DNA of 64,000 bases, taken from an uncultured Scytonema sp. Its GTDB lineage: Bacteria > Cyanobacteriota > Cyanobacteriia > Cyanobacteriales > Nostocaceae. The translations under genes were made by a program, and so were the position numbers. Positions 50,601-63,989 of the stretch are shown here, piece by piece. The notes below the pieces were generated by a model. It worked only from the letters and a program-made list of their open reading frames with translations. It was not told the DNA's origin and did no database searches. How positions within the stretch are numbered: the first letter of the stretch is position 1; the number at the start of each line of letters is the position of its first letter. The stretch is taken from the NCBI GenBank assembly GCA_937873135.1, contig CALMVQ010000154.1, forward strand, positions 51,725 to 115,724. The letters are read 5' to 3'.

Positions 50601-52628
50601 TTAAGAGAATTGAAACGCCCCAATATCAGCGCTACCATCAGCAGCACGACGAGGTAAACCACGTTGGTCGGTTGTGGGGTCGCTATCTAGTATAATTGGG
50701 TCAGCCGCACCAATTGCCGGACTGTCTCTTAGGAGTGCGATCGTTTGAGTCGAGCCACCATTAAAGGTTAGAATATCTAAGCGAGGGTCAATCACCGAGT
50801 CGCTAGTCCCAATAATATCACCAATAGTTTCATCAAATCCGGTGCTGCCTGTGCTGTCACCAATTAGGTTGTAGCCATTGGTTGTAAATGTGCCATCTAC
50901 ATCGGGGCTAATACCGTTCCCCTTGTTGAGGTTAGAGGCAATAATTGTATTGCGCACGTTGAATGAGCCACGAACAGATGTTGAAGTTGGGGCAACATCG
51001 TTTTGGTATACGCCTCCACCACGATTGGCAGTTATATTTTGGGTGACGGTACTGAACAACAGTGTGAAGGTGGCAGCGTAATCGTTATAGATACCGCCAC
51101 CGTTACCGGTATTGCGGTTTATGCCTAATGCATTGTTATTGCTGATGGTGCTGTTGATGACTGTAGCGTTACCAGAGTTATCGATCCCGCCGCCACCGCT
51201 CACGCCTGATGCTGTGTTACCGCTAATGGTACTATTGATTATCGTACTGGTACCAGAATTAAAAATACCGCCGCCGTTACCGCCTTCCCGTGCTTGTGAT
51301 GCAGTGTTACCGCTAATGGTACTATTGCTCACCGTAATCGTACCACGGTTATAGATGCCGCCACCATCACCGCTGTCGGAGTAGTGGCCACCTTGCGATG
51401 TCCGGTTATTATTGATGGTACTATTGCTCAGTGTAGCGTTACCAGAGTTAAAGATGCCGCCGCCACCGTTAAAGCCAGTTATCGTGTTGTTGGCGATAAT
51501 AGTATCACTCACTGTGAGATTTCTGGTGTTATAGATGCCACCACCTTTGCTATTGCTTATGGTGCTGTTAGTAATAGCAGCAGTACCCGTATTATAAATA
51601 CCGCCACCCGTGCCAGGACCATAATTGCTAGCGATCGCTGAACCGCTGATGGTAGAATTGCTCAGATTGAGCGTGCCACCATTGAAGACACTGCCACCAA
51701 TGTTGGAGCCATAGTCGCCACCACTAGTTGAACCGCCCAGACTACTGTTAGTCACTTCAACTGTGCCAATACTATAAATACTACCACCACTGTGACTGCC
51801 ATAAGTACCTCCAGTTGCTGAATTGTTCAGAGTACTGTTGCTGACGATAAGACTACCACTATTATAAATACCACCACCTGTACTACTACCGTAACTGCCT
51901 GTGATCGCTCTATTACCACTAAGGGTGCTGTTGCTGATGAAAACACTGCCTGTGTTGTAAATACCGCCACCGATTGCACCAGCATTAGCATCATCATTTG
52001 CTGTGTTACTGCTGACAGTACTGTTACTCAAATTGAGAGTACCAGTATTATAGATGCCAGCGCCATAACCATTCACCACTCGAGAGGTGTTTGAGCTACC
52101 TAAGCTACTAGTGACATTATTATTGCTAACAATAGTGCTATCTAGATTGAGAGTCCCAGAGTTACTAATTCCACCACCATTGTCTCCTGTGAGCTTACCA
52201 CCAGTAATGAGCAATCCAGATAAGTTGACTGTTGCGCCTGTGTCAATCTCAAACACACGCGTTGCATTGTTACCGGAAACGCTCACCAGATCACCACCAG
52301 TTAAGGTGTCTCGTGGAGCAATAATGTCTAAGCTGTGGGTAATATCCAGTTCTCCCAAGCTCAAGGTAATAGTCTGCTTCGTAGAAAATAAAGAGCGGTC
52401 AAATACAATCAAGTCTTCACCCGAGTCTGCATTAGCCTGATTAATAGCGTCGCGCAGAGTCGTGATACCATTGTTATTATCTACTTGATCCGCAATACTG
52501 TTCACCACGATGGTAGCACTAGGTTGTAAGTTAATGGTTCCAGTACCAAGCAAATCATGCACATTGTCCGCAAATACAGCAGTATTAGATAGTGGAGCGT
52601 TGGTAGCGCCTACAACTGACAAATCCAT
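50601..52628 (-). CDS. Parallel beta-helix / choice-of-anchor Q-like repeat protein
   Basis: SIADQVDNNNGITTLRDAINQAN; many NSTISGNTA / GGGIYNTGTLNLSNSTVSSN repeats; terminal QRGLPRRAADGSADIGAFQ. Confidence 0.9.
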   Translation of the reverse strand: MDLSVVGATNAPLSNTAVFADNVHDLLGTGTINLQPSATIVVNSIADQVDNNNGITTLRDAINQANADSGEDLIVFDRSLFSTKQTITLSLGELDITHSLDIIAPRDTLTGGDLVSVSGNNATRVFEIDTGATVNLSGLLITGGKLTGDNGGGISNSGTLNLDSTIVSNNNVTSSLGSSNTSRVVNGYGAGIYNTGTLNLSNSTVSSNTANDDANAGAIGGGIYNTGSVFISNSTLSGNRAITGSYGSSTGGGIYNSGSLIVSNSTLNNSATGGTYGSHSGGSIYSIGTVEVTNSSLGGSTSGGDYGSNIGGSVFNGGTLNLSNSTISGSAIASNYGPGTGGGIYNTGTAAITNSTISNSKGGGIYNTRNLTVSDTIIANNTITGFNGGGGIFNSGNATLSNSTINNNRTSQGGHYSDSGDGGGIYNRGTITVSNSTISGNTASQAREGGNGGGIFNSGTSTIINSTISGNTASGVSGGGGIDNSGNATVINSTISNNNALGINRNTGNGGGIYNDYAATFTLLFSTVTQNITANRGGGVYQNDVAPTSTSVRGSFNVRNTIIASNLNKGNGISPDVDGTFTTNGYNLIGDSTGSTGFDETIGDIIGTSDSVIDPRLDILTFNGGSTQTIALLRDSPAIGAADPIILDSDPTTDQRGLPRRAADGSADIGAFQFS

Positions 52629-53926: not shown

Positions 53927-54235
53927 TTAAGGAATTAAAGACGGTTCTTGCATATCCGGATAAACCATCGCTTTTATAGCTTGCTCACGCTCGGTAATTA
54001 CGGAACGTCCTTGACGACGACAGGTTTGTACTACCGTTAATAAATTAGTAGTATTTTTAAACCGCTCCATCGAACGGGAACCTCCACTAATCTTTCTCTT
54101 CGTTACTCTTAGCCGGAGCGAACGCTCCGCTAAGTTATTGTCTGGAGGTACCTCTGGATGGTCAAAAAAATACGACCATTGGTCTGTTTTGTATCGTAGT
54201 GATCGTAAAAGCTGTTGGCGTTGCTTTGCCAGCAA
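53927..54235 (-). pseudogene. C-terminal fragment of an IS66-family transposase
   Basis: LRSLRYKTDQWSYFFDHPEVPPDNNLAERSLRLRVTKRKISGGSRSMERFKNTTNLLTVVQTCRRQGRSV. Confidence 0.88.
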
Positions 54236-54684: not shown

Positions 54685-57600
54685 TCAACTAGAGCAGAGT
54701 TTTTTATCGTCTGGCAGAACTTTGGGATCGTTGTTGAGATAATCATGCACCCAGTCGCAAGCATTGTGAATTAAAGAATTCAGTTTCGGGGTTTTCAGTT
54801 CTTGAGGATCGAAATGCCAGAGTCTGACGGTACTGTCCCAACTGCCAGAAATAACGGTTTTGCCGTCGGGACTAAAACCGACACTCACAACAGCATTTCG
54901 ATGACCCAAGAACGTTTTTAGCAGCTTACCATCTAAGCTCCAGACTTTCACTGTTTTGTCTCCACTGGCGGAAGCTAGAGCCTTACCATCAGGAGAAAAG
55001 CTACTGCTATACACACTATCAGTATGTCCAGTAAAAGTGTGAAGTAGTTGTCCGTCACTGCTCTGCCAGAGTTTAACAGTTCCATCGGCACTGCTTGAGG
55101 CAATCATTGTACCGTTAGGACTGAAAGTGACGCCTAATATCCACTGATTATGTGCAGGTATAGTTAAGAGCAGGCGACCTGTTGAACTTTCCCAAAGTTT
55201 GATGGTATTGTCTGCACTAGCTGAAGCTATAGTTTTACCGTCTGGGCTGAATGAGACTGCATCGACCTCTGCCTCATGCCCCTTCAAGTCTCGAATCAAA
55301 GTGCCACTACTTGTCTGCCAAAGTTTAACGATGTTATCTTTACCAGCAGTCGCAATAATTTTACCGTCGGGACTGAAACTGACTTTATCGACTTCATCAG
55401 TGTGCCCAACTAGAGTATGGAGCAACGCACCGTCACTCGTCCGCCAAAGTTTAACGGTTTGATCGGCACTCGCTGAGGCAAGAGTCTGGCCGTCAGGCGA
55501 AAAAACGACGTTATAGACAGCACTTTTGTGCCCCGACCAGTTGTTGATTGAAGTTCCGTCACGCCGCCACAATCTGATTGTACCATCCAAACTTCCCGAA
55601 GCGATCGCACGACTATCAGGACTGAATGTCGCACTATTGACGCCAGCACCATACCCGGCAAAAATTCCTAGCAAAGATCTATTCGGCTGCTGCCAAAGTC
55701 TAATCGTTCCATCCACACTAGCCGAAGCAATCGTCCGACTATCAGGACTGAAACTCACGCCGCTCACGCCACCAGTATGCCCTCTGAACGTTTCTAGTTC
55801 TACGCCGTTATAACTCCAGAGTTTCACAGTGTTGTCAGCACTCGCCGAAGCAATAGTCTTACCATCGGGACTGAAAGCGACAGCCAAAACCGAATCGCTA
55901 TGTCCGTTCAGATTTGTGATTAAGTGACCATCACTACTACTCCAGAGTTTAACAGTGTTGTCTCGACTTCCTGAGACAATCGTCTTACTATCAGGGCTAA
56001 AAGCTATACTATTGATCCAATCAGTATCCCCGGTGAGTGTTCTTAATAAATGACCATCACTACTACTCCAGAGTTTAATGGTTTTATCCTCACTACCGGA
56101 GGCGATAATTTTGCCATCAGGACTGTAGGTGACGCAAATAACCCCATCATTATGCCCGGTGAGTGTTCTCAATAAGCGACCATCGCTGGCATTCCAGATT
56201 TTGACAGTTTGATCGGCATTGGCGGAGGCGATGGTTTTGCCATCCGGGCTGAACGTTGCTGCTGTTTGGCTATTAACTGCAATAGTTCTCAACAGCAAAC
56301 CGTCACTCACTCTCCAAAGTTTAATTGTCTTATCAACACTAGTAGAGGCAATAGTCTTACTATCAGGAGCGAAGCTGATACTAGAAATAGCGTTGCTATG
56401 TCCGGTGAGCGTATTTAATAATCTACCATCACGACTCCAAAGTTTGATTGTCTTGTCTAATGAAGCTGAGGCAAGTATTTGCCCATTAGGACTGAAACTC
56501 ACACTGACAACCCCAGCATTATGCTTTTCTAAACGGTTGCGTTCTTGAATTTCCGTGGTGATTTGCCCAAGCGCACTTATCGTCACCGACTTGATATTTG
56601 CTGGTACGCCAATAGTCTTCTCGATTTGTTTTCCTGCCTTGACACTGGCTATCAATGCTTCAAGCTGCTGATTGGATGCAAGATTAGCTTTGGATGAGGA
56701 ATTTAAAGCTTCAATTTCTCTCATTTGTGCTTCTCGTCCTTGCGAGTAAGCTAAAATAGCAAAACCGCAAGCTGCTATTCCCAAAGCACTCAGGGCAACA
56801 ACAGCCCTTTGGGCTTGTCTCAATCTTCTTTTTTCCTGTAATTGTTGTCGTTTTCTTTCTGCCAAACAAGCTTCGATGAAACATTGCACATCAGCAGAAA
56901 GTTCATCAGTCCACTTAATATAAATATCTTCTGCCTCTGCCAACCGCACTCCCTGTAACAAAAAATCAGATTGCCGATCGCTTTGCAACCACAGTCGCGA
57001 AGCTTGTTCAATTTGGCGTTGTTTGCGCAGGCGATCGCGATTTTCCTCCAACCACGAGCGTAAAATTGACCAATGTTGAATCAAGATTTCGTGAGCAACT
57101 TCGACTGTGACTGCGGGGAGTTGCAACACAGAAGTCTGAGCAGTGGCAATATCTGTAGGGAACTTCAGGGGGTTCTTACTGTCTTCCGGCTCTCCTTTGG
57201 ATAAGAACGTTAAGCTTTGCTCAGTTATACCACCACTCCGAGCTTTGAAGAAAGTAGGAATAGGTTGTTGGGATGGAAGTTCTCCCTCTCCCTCTGCCCC
57301 CTTCTCCTCCTCCACATTTACGACAACTAACTTAGCAGCGATTAACGCATTCAGCGTTCTTTCTACTAACTCGGGCGGATATTTTTTCACGATCAACTCT
57401 GATTTGAATACCCGTCGCCGAGTATCTTCAGTACCTTCACCAAGCTGTGTCAAAGACAGAAAAATCCATTTAGCACATTCTTTAGCTCCTAGGTCTAAAC
57501 TGTTGTATACAGCCTGACATGATCGCTCTAATGCGCCTTTGATTCCACCGAGTTGCTCTTGATACGCTTGCAGTGTTAACTCACCCGCCACGCGATGTTG

Positions 57601-59949
57601 CCACAACTGCTCTAAAACAAATTCCAGTAAAGGTAAATCTCCTACTGAGTGGTTAAGTTCCCGCAGCAAAACTTCCACCAGTTCTGGTTCTACCTTTAAC
57701 CCGACTTTTTCGGCTGGGTTAAGAATAACACGTCGGTAGTCGCTTATACTTAGTTTTCCTGACACTAAAACACTGGACTCCTGTAAAGCTAGAGCCAGTT
57801 CTGGTACTGTTAAACAGGAGGCAATGAAGTCTGCTCGTAAAGTGATAACTAACTTGAAACGATCAGATGCATACTTCACCGCCCCCAACACGAGTTCTAA
57901 AAAACGCTCTCTGTCTGTCTTGGAAGCAAGAGTAAATAATTCCTCAAATTGATCTATCACCAGCACGACAACTTCGTGAGGCAGACTGCGTATCCAGTAA
58001 ACAAATCCCTCAACTTCAGTGAAGGGATCTGGAGAAGAATTGCCTCCATGTCGTCCCTGCATCCTCTTTTTCCCTCCCAGCCGTTGCGCCAAAGCTTCCA
58101 GGGGACGTGTTCCTGGGCGAATGCTTTTGATCCACCACTGTTCGCTGTGGGGAATTTGTTTACCCAATCGTAGTGCTGGAATCAGCCCTGCTTGCACAAC
58201 TGACGATTTCCCGCTCGCTGAAGCACCGACGACAGCAAGAAATGATTTATGGGTTAGTTGATTAATTAACTGCTGAGTGAGAATTTCTCTACCGTAAAAA
58301 TACCGAGAATCATCCTCACAAAAAGAACTTAAACCCATGTAAGGGCAGACGCCGAGATCCAATCCGGTTTGTTCAGAGCGATGTGCTTCAGTTTTTGCCT
58401 CGAGAATTTCTATAATCCCTTGTACACCCGAAAGCCAGACGTGGAAGGGAATATTGCTACCTGCTAGGGAGAGTTGCAGTTGTGCGATCGCACCAGCTGC
58501 TGACAATCCAGATGCGACTGTTGTGACTTCTAGAGTCTGTAGCAAAGTTTGAGCAAACCTTTCTGGTTCTTCTGGATGAGAAGCGCAAGCAATTAAACAT
58601 TGTCCTTGTTGTGAGTCAGAAAGTAAATCTTCTACCCAATCTTGTAATGCGACTCTGTGAGATTCACGCCTTTTTAAAGAGTGATTGGGAGAAGGATGTG
58701 TCAGGGCAAGAGGACAATCTAAAATAAGAATTTGTTTAGCGCGACAAGAACGTAGTTGCTGCTTTAACCATGAGCGCTTAATCCGGATCTCCTCGCCCAA
58801 CACCAATCCTTCCCAAGCTTCCGTTTCTTCTATTCGCCCCCGAAGATAAAGGAGAACCGTATCTGAAGAAGGCGAATGTAAATGACGGGCGATCGCCTCT
58901 CTTACATCATGAGCCGTCGCCTTTGTTGCTGACAAGTACTCCAGTTCAAAACCTCTAGCACTCCCTAAAACCTTGCTAATCTCTAAAGTGACTTGGCTTC
59001 CTGAAGTTCCTTCCACGACTAATCCAACGCGGTGGCGATTAACTCCCACAACTTTAGACGATTTGGCTCCTACAATTAATTCTCCAACTCCTTCCACAAT
59101 TCTCTTAGGAGTTTGGAGAGGATATTCGCTAAAAAGCTGAGTGTCTCCCTTACTTCTTTTCTGCTGATTAATTAACCGTAACTGTTGATTTGTTTTATCT
59201 ATATATTGTAAAGTTTGATGATAGACATATCGATATAAAGTATCTGCTGAAATTAAACCTTGAGAATCGGCGGCTTCACCACGCAATCCCTGCATTAAAT
59301 AATAAGTAAATACTCCATGTCTTAGTTCCGGAAACTCCCAAGAGCGTTGATTGAGATCGCAAGAAAGCAAAGCATAAAATCGTCTACTTTTAGCTGCCTG
59401 CTGCAACACTTCTACAAATTGCTGTGTCGGATTCACTAACAATTCTGCTGTTGCCCCTTGGAGAGTCATCACACCACTGTGACAAGCATCTAACCAAACT
59501 AACTGAGTTTGGGCAGCAGAGTTTTTGAATAATTGTAGTACTTCTTGTAAAGCTAAACCCGTGTTGAGTAAGTTAGATTTTTGTGTATCTGCCAGACATA
59601 AAAATGCTTGCTGCGTGTTTGGTTCTACTATTCCATGCCCGGAAAAATAAAATAAAATGGTATCAGTAGGTTTAGCGATCGTCGTAATTTCCTGGAGAGT
59701 CGTACGCACACTCTTTAATGAAGGTGGAATCGCTAAATCGTGGTATACTTTTAGCTCTTTTTGCGGAAATTGTGCCGTAGTATCTATTAAGGCTTCTGCC
59801 AACCCCTGACAATCTACTGCTGAGTACTGTAGGTTGGGGAGTTGCTCATCCTGATACTGATTAACTCCCACAAGTATCAGCCACAGGTTAGCTGTAGCTG
59901 TTTGTTTGATTTGAGTAGAGCGACTGGTAGCGACACCAACTGGGCACAT
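54685..59949 (-). CDS. Caspase-like (C14) peptidase - nSTAND NTPase - TM - 14x WD40 protein
   Basis: Caspase motifs YFSGHG and [23 protein letters not shown]...[43 protein letters not shown]; 14 [29 protein letters not shown] repeats. Confidence 0.95.
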
Positions 59950-60352
59950 ATCAATTCGGGGTTTGAGATTTGGGATTTAGGATTTGGGCTAGACTGCTCA
60001 CCGTTACCAAGAGCATAAACGCAAAAACGCAGATTGTTTGGCAGTTTGTCTTAAAATAGGATCTGGGAAATTTACAATTGTTTATAAGGTTAAATAATGT
60101 TCACTTTCCTTATGTTATGCAGTTTGACTCGAAGTAAAATCTAAAAAAATTACAAAACGATATATTAGAGCTAATTTCTGGTGTTTAAACCAGAAGGGGG
60201 TAGGGAGCAAGGGAAGAAGAATGATTCTTAACTTTGTTGGCTCCTGTCTCCTAACCGCCGAAATACGCTTCTAAATTCGTGTATTAAGGTTGTGGGGGAG
60301 CACTCTAAGGCTGAACCCCTCCACTCATTCTATAGGTCGGTTCGCTAGTTTT

Positions 60353-61522
60353 ATGGATTCTCGAAGCAACATTGTGGAAATATTTTCGACTTTTTTGGTA
60401 TTTGCTGCCGATCGCTGTAGTGGTTGGACAAAGGATGCTAGGCTCAGCCGTCAGATGCACAAACTGATCGAGCAAACCCCACAGCAAACGAACGAAAACT
60501 TTTGGGTGCTTTATTGGTATAATAACATGCAGAATCCTCATTCGGCTAAACTTGCTAAGGAGCATTTGATCGCTTATTTGCAAGAACCTTGCTACTGGGC
60601 AGCCCAAAAAACATATACCAGCTTTGCCACGAGCCAGTATAAATTATCAGATCATTTTCAGATTGCAATTTCTCAAGTTGATAAAGTATTCAAAGGTTTT
60701 GACCCTAAAAGTGGTTTCAGCCTTAAAAACTATGCTACCGCTATCTTTGGCAGTGCCATTCGCGAAACTTTGCGGCAGTATCACGAAATTGATATTTGTA
60801 CAGATTGGGGACTATTGCGAAAAATAAGTCAAAAGCGTTTAGTCGAGTCTTTGCAATCAGCTGGCTTATCCCCCACTACGGTGACTGCTTACGTTGCTGC
60901 TTGGAACTATTTCAAGTCGCTATATATACCAACACAAGCAACCACTACCCGACAGCTTTCACGCCCAGATAAACAAACTTGGGAAGCGATCGCTCTTGCT
61001 TACAACAGAGCAAACCAACCGCCAATTAACACGCAAACCCTGGAAAGCTGGTTGCTCAGTTGTGCCAAAGCCGCACGTACATATCTTTACCCTAGTTTGA
61101 CTTCGATCAACACGAAAAATAGTTCTGATGATAAAGATTGGCTGGATAATTTACCTGGGAAAGAACAAGATTCTCCACTGAGCCAAATTATTGCCACTGA
61201 AGAACAACAAACCAATTTTTCTTACCAAACTGAAATCAACAAGGTGTTAGTTGCTGCAATTACCTTATTAGAACCGCAAGCACAAGAGATTTTGCAACTT
61301 TACTACCTCAAAGGACTCACCCAGCAGCAGATTGCCAAACAAGAGCAAATTCAACAGTACACCGTCTCACGGCGGTTGACAAAAGCGAGGGAATTATTAC
61401 TGCGATCTTTGGCTAAATGGAGTGAAGACACCTTGCATATCTCGATGACTTCAGACATATTAAAAAGCTGTAGTGCGATGATGGAGGAATGGCTGCAAGA
61501 TTACTACAAACCATCTGTGTAA
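60353..61522 (+). CDS. Sigma-70-family-like RNA polymerase sigma factor
   Basis: KGFDPKSGFSLKNYATAIFGSAIRETLRQ (region 2-like) and LLEPQAQEILQLYYLKGLTQQQIAKQEQIQQYTVSRRLTKARELLL (region 4 HTH); in-frame ATG at 60353 within ORF 60290-61522. Confidence 0.8.
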   Translation: MDSRSNIVEIFSTFLVFAADRCSGWTKDARLSRQMHKLIEQTPQQTNENFWVLYWYNNMQNPHSAKLAKEHLIAYLQEPCYWAAQKTYTSFATSQYKLSDHFQIAISQVDKVFKGFDPKSGFSLKNYATAIFGSAIRETLRQYHEIDICTDWGLLRKISQKRLVESLQSAGLSPTTVTAYVAAWNYFKSLYIPTQATTTRQLSRPDKQTWEAIALAYNRANQPPINTQTLESWLLSCAKAARTYLYPSLTSINTKNSSDDKDWLDNLPGKEQDSPLSQIIATEEQQTNFSYQTEINKVLVAAITLLEPQAQEILQLYYLKGLTQQQIAKQEQIQQYTVSRRLTKARELLLRSLAKWSEDTLHISMTSDILKSCSAMMEEWLQDYYKPSV

Positions 61523-61686
61523 ACTCCACTGCCGCGCCCACGCAAGGGATGCGGTTTTCAAAAAACAAGGAGTCAGGAGGAAAAGTTGGTTATCTTTTAT
61601 TGATATACGTCCTAAATATTTTATCTTTTAACTTTTTTCGACTTCTCCCCCTCTCCAATACCTCCCTAATCATCACCTTATAAGCC

Positions 61687-62844
61687 ATGACTAACAACAC
61701 AACCATATTTAACTTTGCTTCGCCAACTGACCTGATTTTACCAATACCACCGGACGTCCCACAACGAAGCGAATCTTTTTCTAACCCAACATCTTTTGCT
61801 TCTGCTGATCTCAATAAACTTTGCCTCAATGCCGTATTGCCTTGGCTACAAGAAGATTTGGCACCGCAGGCAAAACCTTGGCCAAGTACCACTGCTCTAC
61901 CTAGCTTTTGGGAATTCGTTAATGGAACTGCGATCTCTATTGACGGAACTCGATTTGTCTTAGTTCCCAGCGAGGCTATGGATTTGGGCGAAATGCGTGT
62001 AGCTCAAGAATGGGTAGATATACCAAGTTTTGTTGGTGATTATTACTTAGCAGTACAGGTAGAACCGGATGACGGTTACGTCAGAATTTGGGGCTACTGT
62101 ACCCACGCACAAATCAAGAATCAGGGAAGTTACGACAGCAGCGATCGCACTTATTCGGTTGAAAACGCTGACATGATTAACGACATCAGTGTGTTAATGG
62201 TAGCGCAACAATTCTGCCAGGAAGAAACGACACGTAGCATCATTCCATCTTTGCCAACTTTATCACCAGTACAAGCACAAAACTTAATCTCCCGTCTGCA
62301 AACGAGCCACATAACACCCCGGTTGGAGATTCCTTTTCAAATGTGGGGGGCTTTAATTGAGCATGGAGGTTGGAGACAAAGCTTATATCAACGACGCTTG
62401 GGACTCCAAGAACAATGGTCGATCATTGAATGGCTTCAGAGCGGTGTCTCTCAATTTGCGCGATCACTTGGTTGGGGAAGTTTAAGTCTACAATTAAGTG
62501 GGGCGGGAGTGCGGAGTGTTGAAGAAATACAATCGCGGATAGCCATGTCTCGCCAACTGATGATAGCAGGTCAACTGTACGATTTGACAATTACACCACA
62601 AAATGAAGGAGAATCAACATGGCACTTTGAGTTGCGTAACGCCACTGTGGGAGCCGCGATTCCTGGTGGTTTTAAACTCAGACTCCTGACGGAAGATTTA
62701 CAGCCGTTTCCCAATAACGAAGATGTCGCCACAACTGCGGTAGAATTACTCTTTGTAGATGTTGCGTTACAACCTGGTGAAGGTATAGTTTGGGAAATAG
62801 AACCCCTACCCGAAAACTACGACCGAGAAATACTGAGGTTTTAA
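61687..62844 (+). CDS. DUF1822-like protein
   Basis: LPSFWEFVNGTAISIDGTRFVLVPSEAMDLGEMRVAQEWVDIPSFVGDYYLAVQVEPDDGYVRIWGYCTHAQIKNQGSYDSSDRTYSV. Confidence 0.75.
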   Translation: MTNNTTIFNFASPTDLILPIPPDVPQRSESFSNPTSFASADLNKLCLNAVLPWLQEDLAPQAKPWPSTTALPSFWEFVNGTAISIDGTRFVLVPSEAMDLGEMRVAQEWVDIPSFVGDYYLAVQVEPDDGYVRIWGYCTHAQIKNQGSYDSSDRTYSVENADMINDISVLMVAQQFCQEETTRSIIPSLPTLSPVQAQNLISRLQTSHITPRLEIPFQMWGALIEHGGWRQSLYQRRLGLQEQWSIIEWLQSGVSQFARSLGWGSLSLQLSGAGVRSVEEIQSRIAMSRQLMIAGQLYDLTITPQNEGESTWHFELRNATVGAAIPGGFKLRLLTEDLQPFPNNEDVATTAVELLFVDVALQPGEGIVWEIEPLPENYDREILRF

Positions 62845-62879: not shown

Positions 62880-63989
62880 GTGCAGATGAATCAGAATGTA
62901 ATTGGTGTTGCAGTTGTTGGTACGGGATTTGGTCAAAAAGTCCATATTCCGGCATTTCAATCTCATCCTTTGACTCAAGTGGTTGCTGTTTACAACCGCG
63001 ATCTAGATAAAGCCAAAGCGATCGCCAAATCCCACGACATTCCTCATGCCTGCAACACAATTGCAGATATTGTGGCACTACCAGAAGTGGAAGCCGTTAG
63101 CATTTCCACACCGCCATTCTTGCATTATGAAATGGCAAAAGCAGTGTTACAGTCTGGCAAACATTTGTTACTGGAAAAACCAACAGCATTAAATGCCGCC
63201 GAGGCGAAAGAACTTTATCGGTTGGCAAAGGAGGCAGGCGTTAGTGCGGCTTTAGACTTTGAGTTTCGCTTTGTTCCTGGCTGGCAGTTTTTTGCCGAAC
63301 TGTTGTCAGATGATTATGTTGGTTCTAAGCATTTGATTAGAATTGATTGGTTGGGTTCTTCGCGTGCTGATGTTTTGCGTCCTTGGAACTGGTATTCGCG
63401 CCGAGATCAAGGAGGCGGTGTATTGGGATCTTTAGGTTCCCACATTTTTGATTATATTTACTGGTTATTTGGTCCTGTACGTAGATTGAGCGCTCGTTTT
63501 AGTACTGCTATTCCTCAAAGGTTGGACCCCGCAACTGATAAACTAAGACCAGTAGATTCTGATGACACTTGTTTGGTGATGCTGGAGTTGGCTGATGGCA
63601 CACCTTGTCAAGTTTCAATCAGTGCCGTGATTCATGCACCTCGTACCCATTGGATGGAAGTTTATGGCGATCGCGGGACTTTGATTTTAGGAAGTGAAAA
63701 TCAAAAAGACTATATATATGGGTTCCATGTTTGGGGTTCTAAGACGGGTAAACCACTGACGCAAATAGAGATTCCCAATCGGTTAATCTTTCCCAGAAAT
63801 TATGGTGATGGTCGTATTTCTGCACTGATTAGGGTTGTGGATAGTTGGCTGGTAGGTATTCACAAGGGTGAGGCGATCGTTCCATCCTTGCGAGAAGGAG
63901 TTTATTCCCAATTGTTGATGGATTGCTGCTATGAATCAAATGTGACATCAAAATGGGTTGATGTGCCAGCATTGGAAGAATTTTTGTAA
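62880..63989 (+). CDS. Gfo/Idh/MocA-family oxidoreductase
   Basis: GVAVVGTGFGQKVHIPAFQSHPLTQVVAVYNRD, EAVSISTPPFLHYEMAKAVLQSGKHLLLEKPTALNAAEAKEL. Confidence 0.93.
   Translation: MQMNQNVIGVAVVGTGFGQKVHIPAFQSHPLTQVVAVYNRDLDKAKAIAKSHDIPHACNTIADIVALPEVEAVSISTPPFLHYEMAKAVLQSGKHLLLEKPTALNAAEAKELYRLAKEAGVSAALDFEFRFVPGWQFFAELLSDDYVGSKHLIRIDWLGSSRADVLRPWNWYSRRDQGGGVLGSLGSHIFDYIYWLFGPVRRLSARFSTAIPQRLDPATDKLRPVDSDDTCLVMLELADGTPCQVSISAVIHAPRTHWMEVYGDRGTLILGSENQKDYIYGFHVWGSKTGKPLTQIEIPNRLIFPRNYGDGRISALIRVVDSWLVGIHKGEAIVPSLREGVYSQLLMDCCYESNVTSKWVDVPALEEFL

Follow-up and report, generated by a model that had tools for sequence, protein, structure and literature searches.

A cyanobacterial caspase–pseudo-caspase–STAND protein co-inherited with a sigma factor and a DUF1822 protein: a possible regulated-proteolysis switch

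Results

Gene layout of the locus

The locus studied here belongs to a lichen-dwelling cyanobacterium with a genome near Rhizonema (Nostocaceae), and was analyzed within a window (the whole stretch of DNA under analysis) of 64 000 nucleotides. Three open reading frames make up the locus, at positions 54685–59949 on the minus strand (1754 aa, encoding the caspase), 60290–61522 on the plus strand (the sigma factor) and 61687–62844 on the plus strand (the DUF1822 protein), with the caspase gene divergent from the other two. A preliminary description of this DNA had given the same three frames and the same divergent layout, which the open reading frame listing confirmed, and also the sigma gene as such; its start at 60290 had to be revised, as the conserved start is the ATG at 60353, giving a protein of 389 aa (60353–61522, plus strand) and thereby an intergenic gap of 403 bp.

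No known Rfam families were found in the window and no CRISPR parts (Cas7-11/gRAMP or a CRISPR array) among the annotated genes at 54–64 kb, with PADLOC matching only its generic caspase and HEAT-ARM entries. A GFO/IDH/MocA oxidoreductase gene (62880–63989, plus strand) begins 35 bp 3' of DUF1822, and many Nostocaceae have a homolog of it close to DUF1822, whether the caspase is present or not. An IS66 transposase remnant (53927–54235, minus strand) lies downstream of the caspase gene, and a 675-aa protein encoded at 50601–52628 (minus strand) is abundant in NSTI/GGGIYN-type repeats and resembles a repeat-rich surface protein.

Domains of the caspase protein

The 1754-aa protein reads, from its N-terminus, as caspase, predicted pseudo-caspase, nSTAND1, transmembrane helix and 14 WD40 repeats. 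Its active C14 caspase domain (aa ~17–262; 59164–59901, minus strand) matched the Peptidase_C14 profile (E=1e-15) and scored 139.8 bits with NCBIfam NF047832 (EACC1-associated caspase), for which the cut-off is 140. His105 (SGHG) and Cys156 (DACHSG) were invariant in an alignment of 19 sequences, which also showed the Asp at position Cys-2 (Asp154) to be kept, and an AF2 model of aa 1–535 matched the MALT1 paracaspase (Foldseek E=4e-9); with this dyad and this fold, the protein can be classed as a C14 caspase/orthocaspase. An Asp two residues before the catalytic Cys is the S1 residue of the Arg/Lys-specific meta- and orthocaspases, and the literature agrees with regards to Arg/Lys cleavage by these enzymes. 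The caspase part is followed by the nSTAND1 NTPase domain (aa 536–994; 56968–58344, minus strand; PF20703, E=8e-115), a transmembrane helix predicted from hydropathy (aa 1049–1067; 56749–56805, minus strand) and WD40 repeats in 14 stretches matching PF00400 (approximate limits 54814–56583, minus strand). The Pfam and NCBIfam profiles, the alignment and the hydropathy analysis hence agree with the dyad, the nSTAND domain, the single transmembrane helix and the 14 repeats as previously described, and support the STAND-regulated protease architecture proposed from them.

Between the caspase and nSTAND1 lies a second caspase-like domain (aa ~300–512; 58414–59052, minus strand), which the preliminary description lacked and which defines the subtype tracked herein. 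When compared with the first domain by hhalign, using 32 sequences, it gave E=6e-5; a shallower alignment had earlier given a weak match (E=0.004). Against unrelated C14 domains from the source genome E was 7e-4, the control profiles (sigma, DUF1822, CHASE2 and reversed ones) stayed at ≥0.1, and CHAT profiles gave weak matches. The AF2 model of this region has the strand and helix order of a caspase, at moderate confidence, and the catalytic His is lost, with SGHG changed to LRGR; an LDC motif is also present. From these profile comparisons and the model we predict the region to be a pseudo-caspase, which probably packs against the active caspase domain.

The sigma factor and its upstream element

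The sigma-70-like factor carries the conserved start motif MxxRxxIVEIFSTF and matched TIGR02937 with E=2.5e-32, while in Pfam only region 4 (Sigma70_r4_2) passed. The TIGR02937 match (positions 5–163 of 165) stretches over aa 92–372 of the long sigma open reading frame. True ECF sigma factors are defined by having regions 2 and 4 within ~50 aa of each other (PMC11119718), and because the match is too widely spread the protein is not a true ECF factor as so defined.

Alignment of 26 loci revealed a conserved element directly before the sigma start (60278–60352, plus strand), reading TGTAGTAAAGTT ... TATAGGTCGG ... TTTT. It was the only conserved intergenic element found, it is oriented toward the sigma gene, and in a motif scan of the genomes searched its strong sites lay solely before the sigma gene, with at most one per genome; the scan found no copy facing caspase genes, be they linked or unlinked. 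The element is probably the sigma factor's own control region. An RNA hairpin that could be seen by eye in the sigma leader was dropped, because RNAalifold found no pairs.

DUF1822 and its conserved arginine

The DUF1822 protein (385 aa; 61687–62844, plus strand) is a full-length match to PF08852 (E=3e-108), and we predict it to be both the partner of the sigma factor and the substrate of the protease. Its AF2 model, of moderate quality (pLDDT 72), has an alpha/beta N-terminal part, a helical middle and an Ig-like C-terminal part, with a low-confidence linker at aa 266–283 (pLDDT <50). Foldseek gave a weak Ig-like resemblance and no significant fold match, sequence searches gave no match to any solved structure, and neither sequence nor fold searches found a likeness to known anti-sigma factors. 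The same kinds of searches, by sequence and by Foldseek, gave no support for DUF1822 as a TPR protein or as a Csx30 homolog. In the literature searched, mentions of DUF1822 were scarce.

Among 128 DUF1822 proteins, only eight columns were conserved in both the CHAT-paired members and the others. Of these, column 276, encoded here at 62512–62514 (plus strand) and situated in the variable linker, was the only charged one, and its surroundings were less conserved (0.06) than those of the other seven; it holds Arg in 104/109 sequences (95%) and Lys in 4/109, and Arg in 19/19 of the CHAT-paired members. Window-type members mostly have an AGAR↓S/G-like context and CHAT-type members most often have FNFR↓S, with a small residue at P1' in most members. 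A scissile site would be expected to look just so, as a lone conserved Arg within a flexible linker, and on the basis of conservation and model we predict Arg276 to be the cleavage site in DUF1822; a structural role could also be envisaged.

Co-inheritance of the three genes

The subtype having caspase and pseudo-caspase domains adjoins a sigma–DUF1822 pair, usually divergently, in many Nostocales (20/80 named loci within the DNA available, many of these loci being truncated), and many Nostoc species lack this adjacency of caspase and sigma genes. DUF1822 directly follows sigma in nearly all of the window-type and CHAT-paired loci read in other genomes, and in the source genome several other DUF1822 genes lack such a sigma neighbour. 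Among 40 relatives, 21 had both this caspase subtype and this type of sigma, one had sigma only, none had the caspase only and 18 had neither (Fisher p=1.7e-10); among 146 cyanobacteria the same classes held 11, 5, 1 and 129 genomes (p=4.6e-12), and inside the family alone p was 0.003, with none of these values fully corrected for descent. The co-occurrence holds even where the two genes lie far apart. For linked pairs the sigma and caspase trees agreed (Mantel r 0.85, 0/2000 permutations), and two genomes (G015 and G021) carry two sigma paralogs each, the first linked with a caspase of the WD40 type and the second with a short caspase; in the sigma tree as in the caspase tree, each groups with others of its kind. 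Shared descent accounts for some of the co-occurrence and some of the tree agreement. Taken as a comparison of sequences, these data show the caspase–pseudo-caspase protein and the sigma–DUF1822 pair to be one co-inherited module. The association of caspase, sigma and DUF1822 families, for which the preliminary description had called for neighbourhood and co-occurrence statistics, was thereby borne out; the link that it named of DUF1822 and sigma factors to caspase/CHAT genes is also in the literature (Kaur et al. 2021, eLife e70394, PMC8195603). One genome carries decaying sigma–DUF1822 remnants with several stop codons (G017:C1:4488984-4490180), and the module can therefore be lost.

Paralogous loci and exchangeable C-termini

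C14 genes number 12 in the source genome, and DUF1822 matches 13. In paralogous loci of this genome, a sigma–DUF1822 pair is followed by EACC2-like CHAT-CHASE2 proteins, a layout that we take to be canonical; the N-terminus of the protein at one of these loci (L009) we infer to be EACC2. Since the sigma–DUF1822 pair recurs, with EACC2-like CHAT-CHASE2 proteins in the paralogous loci, a caspase-fold protease is its recurrent partner. Two further DUF1822 loci of this genome were seen. One (L012, G000:C209:25600-36000) is an island on one strand with a weak sigma-like 255-aa gene, DUF1822, a GTPase with DUF697 and a C14 caspase, and the other (L014, G000:C325) has DUF1822 between NACHT-HEAT and CHAT-CHASE2 proteins, without an adjoining sigma gene.

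Compared by sequence, the caspases keep their catalytic dyad intact and carry exchangeable ends of sensor or adaptor type. The C-terminus can be nSTAND1, transmembrane helix and WD40, as in the window; nSTAND1 and transmembrane helix without WD40 (L092); or, in short caspases, two ~60-aa helical repeats (L084, L085, L088, L089 and L093). The same two tandem repeats also end Ser/Thr kinases encoded just 3' of DUF1822 (L085:7110-8690 and L093:1287-2801, both on the minus strand) and occur in a 475-aa protein of the L089 locus. The short caspases and their repeat-sharing neighbours may possibly form a homotypic adaptor pair, and the shared repeats fit the idea of homotypic adaptors put forward by Kaur et al.

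Discussion

A candidate switch and its alternatives

We propose that the three proteins may constitute a regulated-proteolysis switch, a tentative reading to which we give a little less than an even chance and of which we infer every biochemical step. DUF1822 would hold the sigma factor inactive, acting as an anti-sigma or co-factor, until the WD40/nSTAND1 part detects a signal and oligomerizes with NTP. Upon oligomerization the caspase (held by the pseudo-caspase half) would turn active and cut DUF1822 after Arg276, thereby separating the C-terminal Ig-like domain and releasing the sigma factor to transcribe a response. Rather doubtful is the wider generalization, that a CRISPR-independent, Craspase-like family of STAND/WD40-, CHASE2- or kinase-linked proteases would cut DUF1822 at R276 and thereby activate dedicated sigma factors, making DUF1822 a new anti-sigma family across filamentous cyanobacteria.

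The opposite direction of control had been proposed in the preliminary description, where stress leads the sigma factor to transcribe its own gene and the divergent caspase gene, with the caspase as terminal death effector and DUF1822 as an accessory regulator. The divergent adjacency seen in many species and the resemblance of caspase-STAND-WD40 proteins to regulated-death proteins would suit such a model, but a single conserved element was found between the genes, which faces sigma, does not occur ahead of caspase genes (linked or unlinked) and lacks a second strong site in the genome, and genomes exist in which the two genes are unlinked yet co-occur (G005, G006, G018, G019, G023 and G035). 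A sigma-driven divergent caspase promoter is thus unsupported and the model as a whole quite improbable; a protease acting on DUF1822 and sigma is the likelier direction. That the locus merely joins an abundant caspase-WD40 gene to a conserved sigma–DUF1822 locus by chance might be argued from the numbers of C14 and DUF1822 genes in the genome and from the lack of adjacency in many Nostoc, yet involvement is limited to the C14-pseudo-C14 subtype, and with the phyletic co-occurrence and paralog-specific pairing strongly disfavouring it, we consider this very improbable.

Another alternative is a caspase that processes either itself or further proteins, with sigma–DUF1822 as a parallel transcription arm responding to the same signal and DUF1822 as a scaffold instead of a substrate. 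Such an arrangement, with autopeptidase activation and a coupled ECF sigma, was proposed by Kaur et al. (2021; PMC8195603), and the adaptor repeats common to short caspases and the neighbouring kinase suggest multi-protein scaffolds; a near-invariant Arg in an otherwise variable DUF1822 linker would be left unexplained, however, and we regard this alternative as unlikely. Cleavage of DUF1822 is the reading that we prefer.

Caspases of cyanobacteria have for a long time been discussed as enzymes of cell death, and few of their substrates or pathways are known. The present locus gives a defined substrate candidate (DUF1822), one residue predicted to be scissile and a read-out at the level of transcription, and prokaryotic caspase signalling via sigma factors outside of CRISPR thereby becomes directly testable. 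If cleavage of DUF1822 is true, this domain of unknown function would acquire one, and the protease would, as suggested here, turn genes on by cutting a partner protein rather than just killing the cell.

Comparison with known systems

Cyanobacterial orthocaspases of the caspase-WD40(14) type, named cbMC-beta, have been known since 2010 (Jiang 2010; PMC2853523) and share with the window protein a caspase with about 14 WD40 repeats, whereas a pseudo-caspase domain and coupling to sigma–DUF1822 were not found in the passages of that paper that were searched. Kaur et al. (2021) devoted one sentence to EACC2-caspase genes with an "ECF" sigma and DUF1822, and their EACC2-caspase/CHAT systems likewise have a caspase-superfamily protease with a variable C-terminal sensor, encoded with sigma and DUF1822. 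In contrast to those systems, the window caspase is N-terminal (starting at residue ~20), without a preceding alpha+beta domain and followed by the pseudo-caspase, and a profile of the EACC2-like-CHAT region gave no match to it; its gene is divergent from sigma; the sigma, "ECF" there, has regions 2 and 4 further apart than the ~50-aa definition; and DUF1822, given there as a TPR protein, was here modelled with an Ig-like C-terminus and had no TPR match. As far as we found in the literature searched, the C14-pseudo-C14 variant replacing EACC2-CHAT, the divergent layout and the exchangeable C-termini are new, as are the co-occurrence statistics, the pairing of paralogs, the adaptor variant linked to kinases and the prediction for R276.

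The best precedent for the proposed switch, by analogy, is Craspase/CASP (Csx29-Csx30-CASP-sigma; PMC10028731), in which Csx30 inhibits a sigma factor and is cleaved by the protease. Both systems have a caspase-fold protease with active and pseudo-caspase domains, and in both a sigma factor comes with a small partner (Csx30 there, DUF1822 here), although homology of DUF1822 to Csx30 was not detected. They differ in that the sensor is STAND-WD40 here and a guide RNA there, with no CRISPR parts among the neighbouring genes of the window, and in that the domain order is active-pseudo here and pseudo-active in Csx29.
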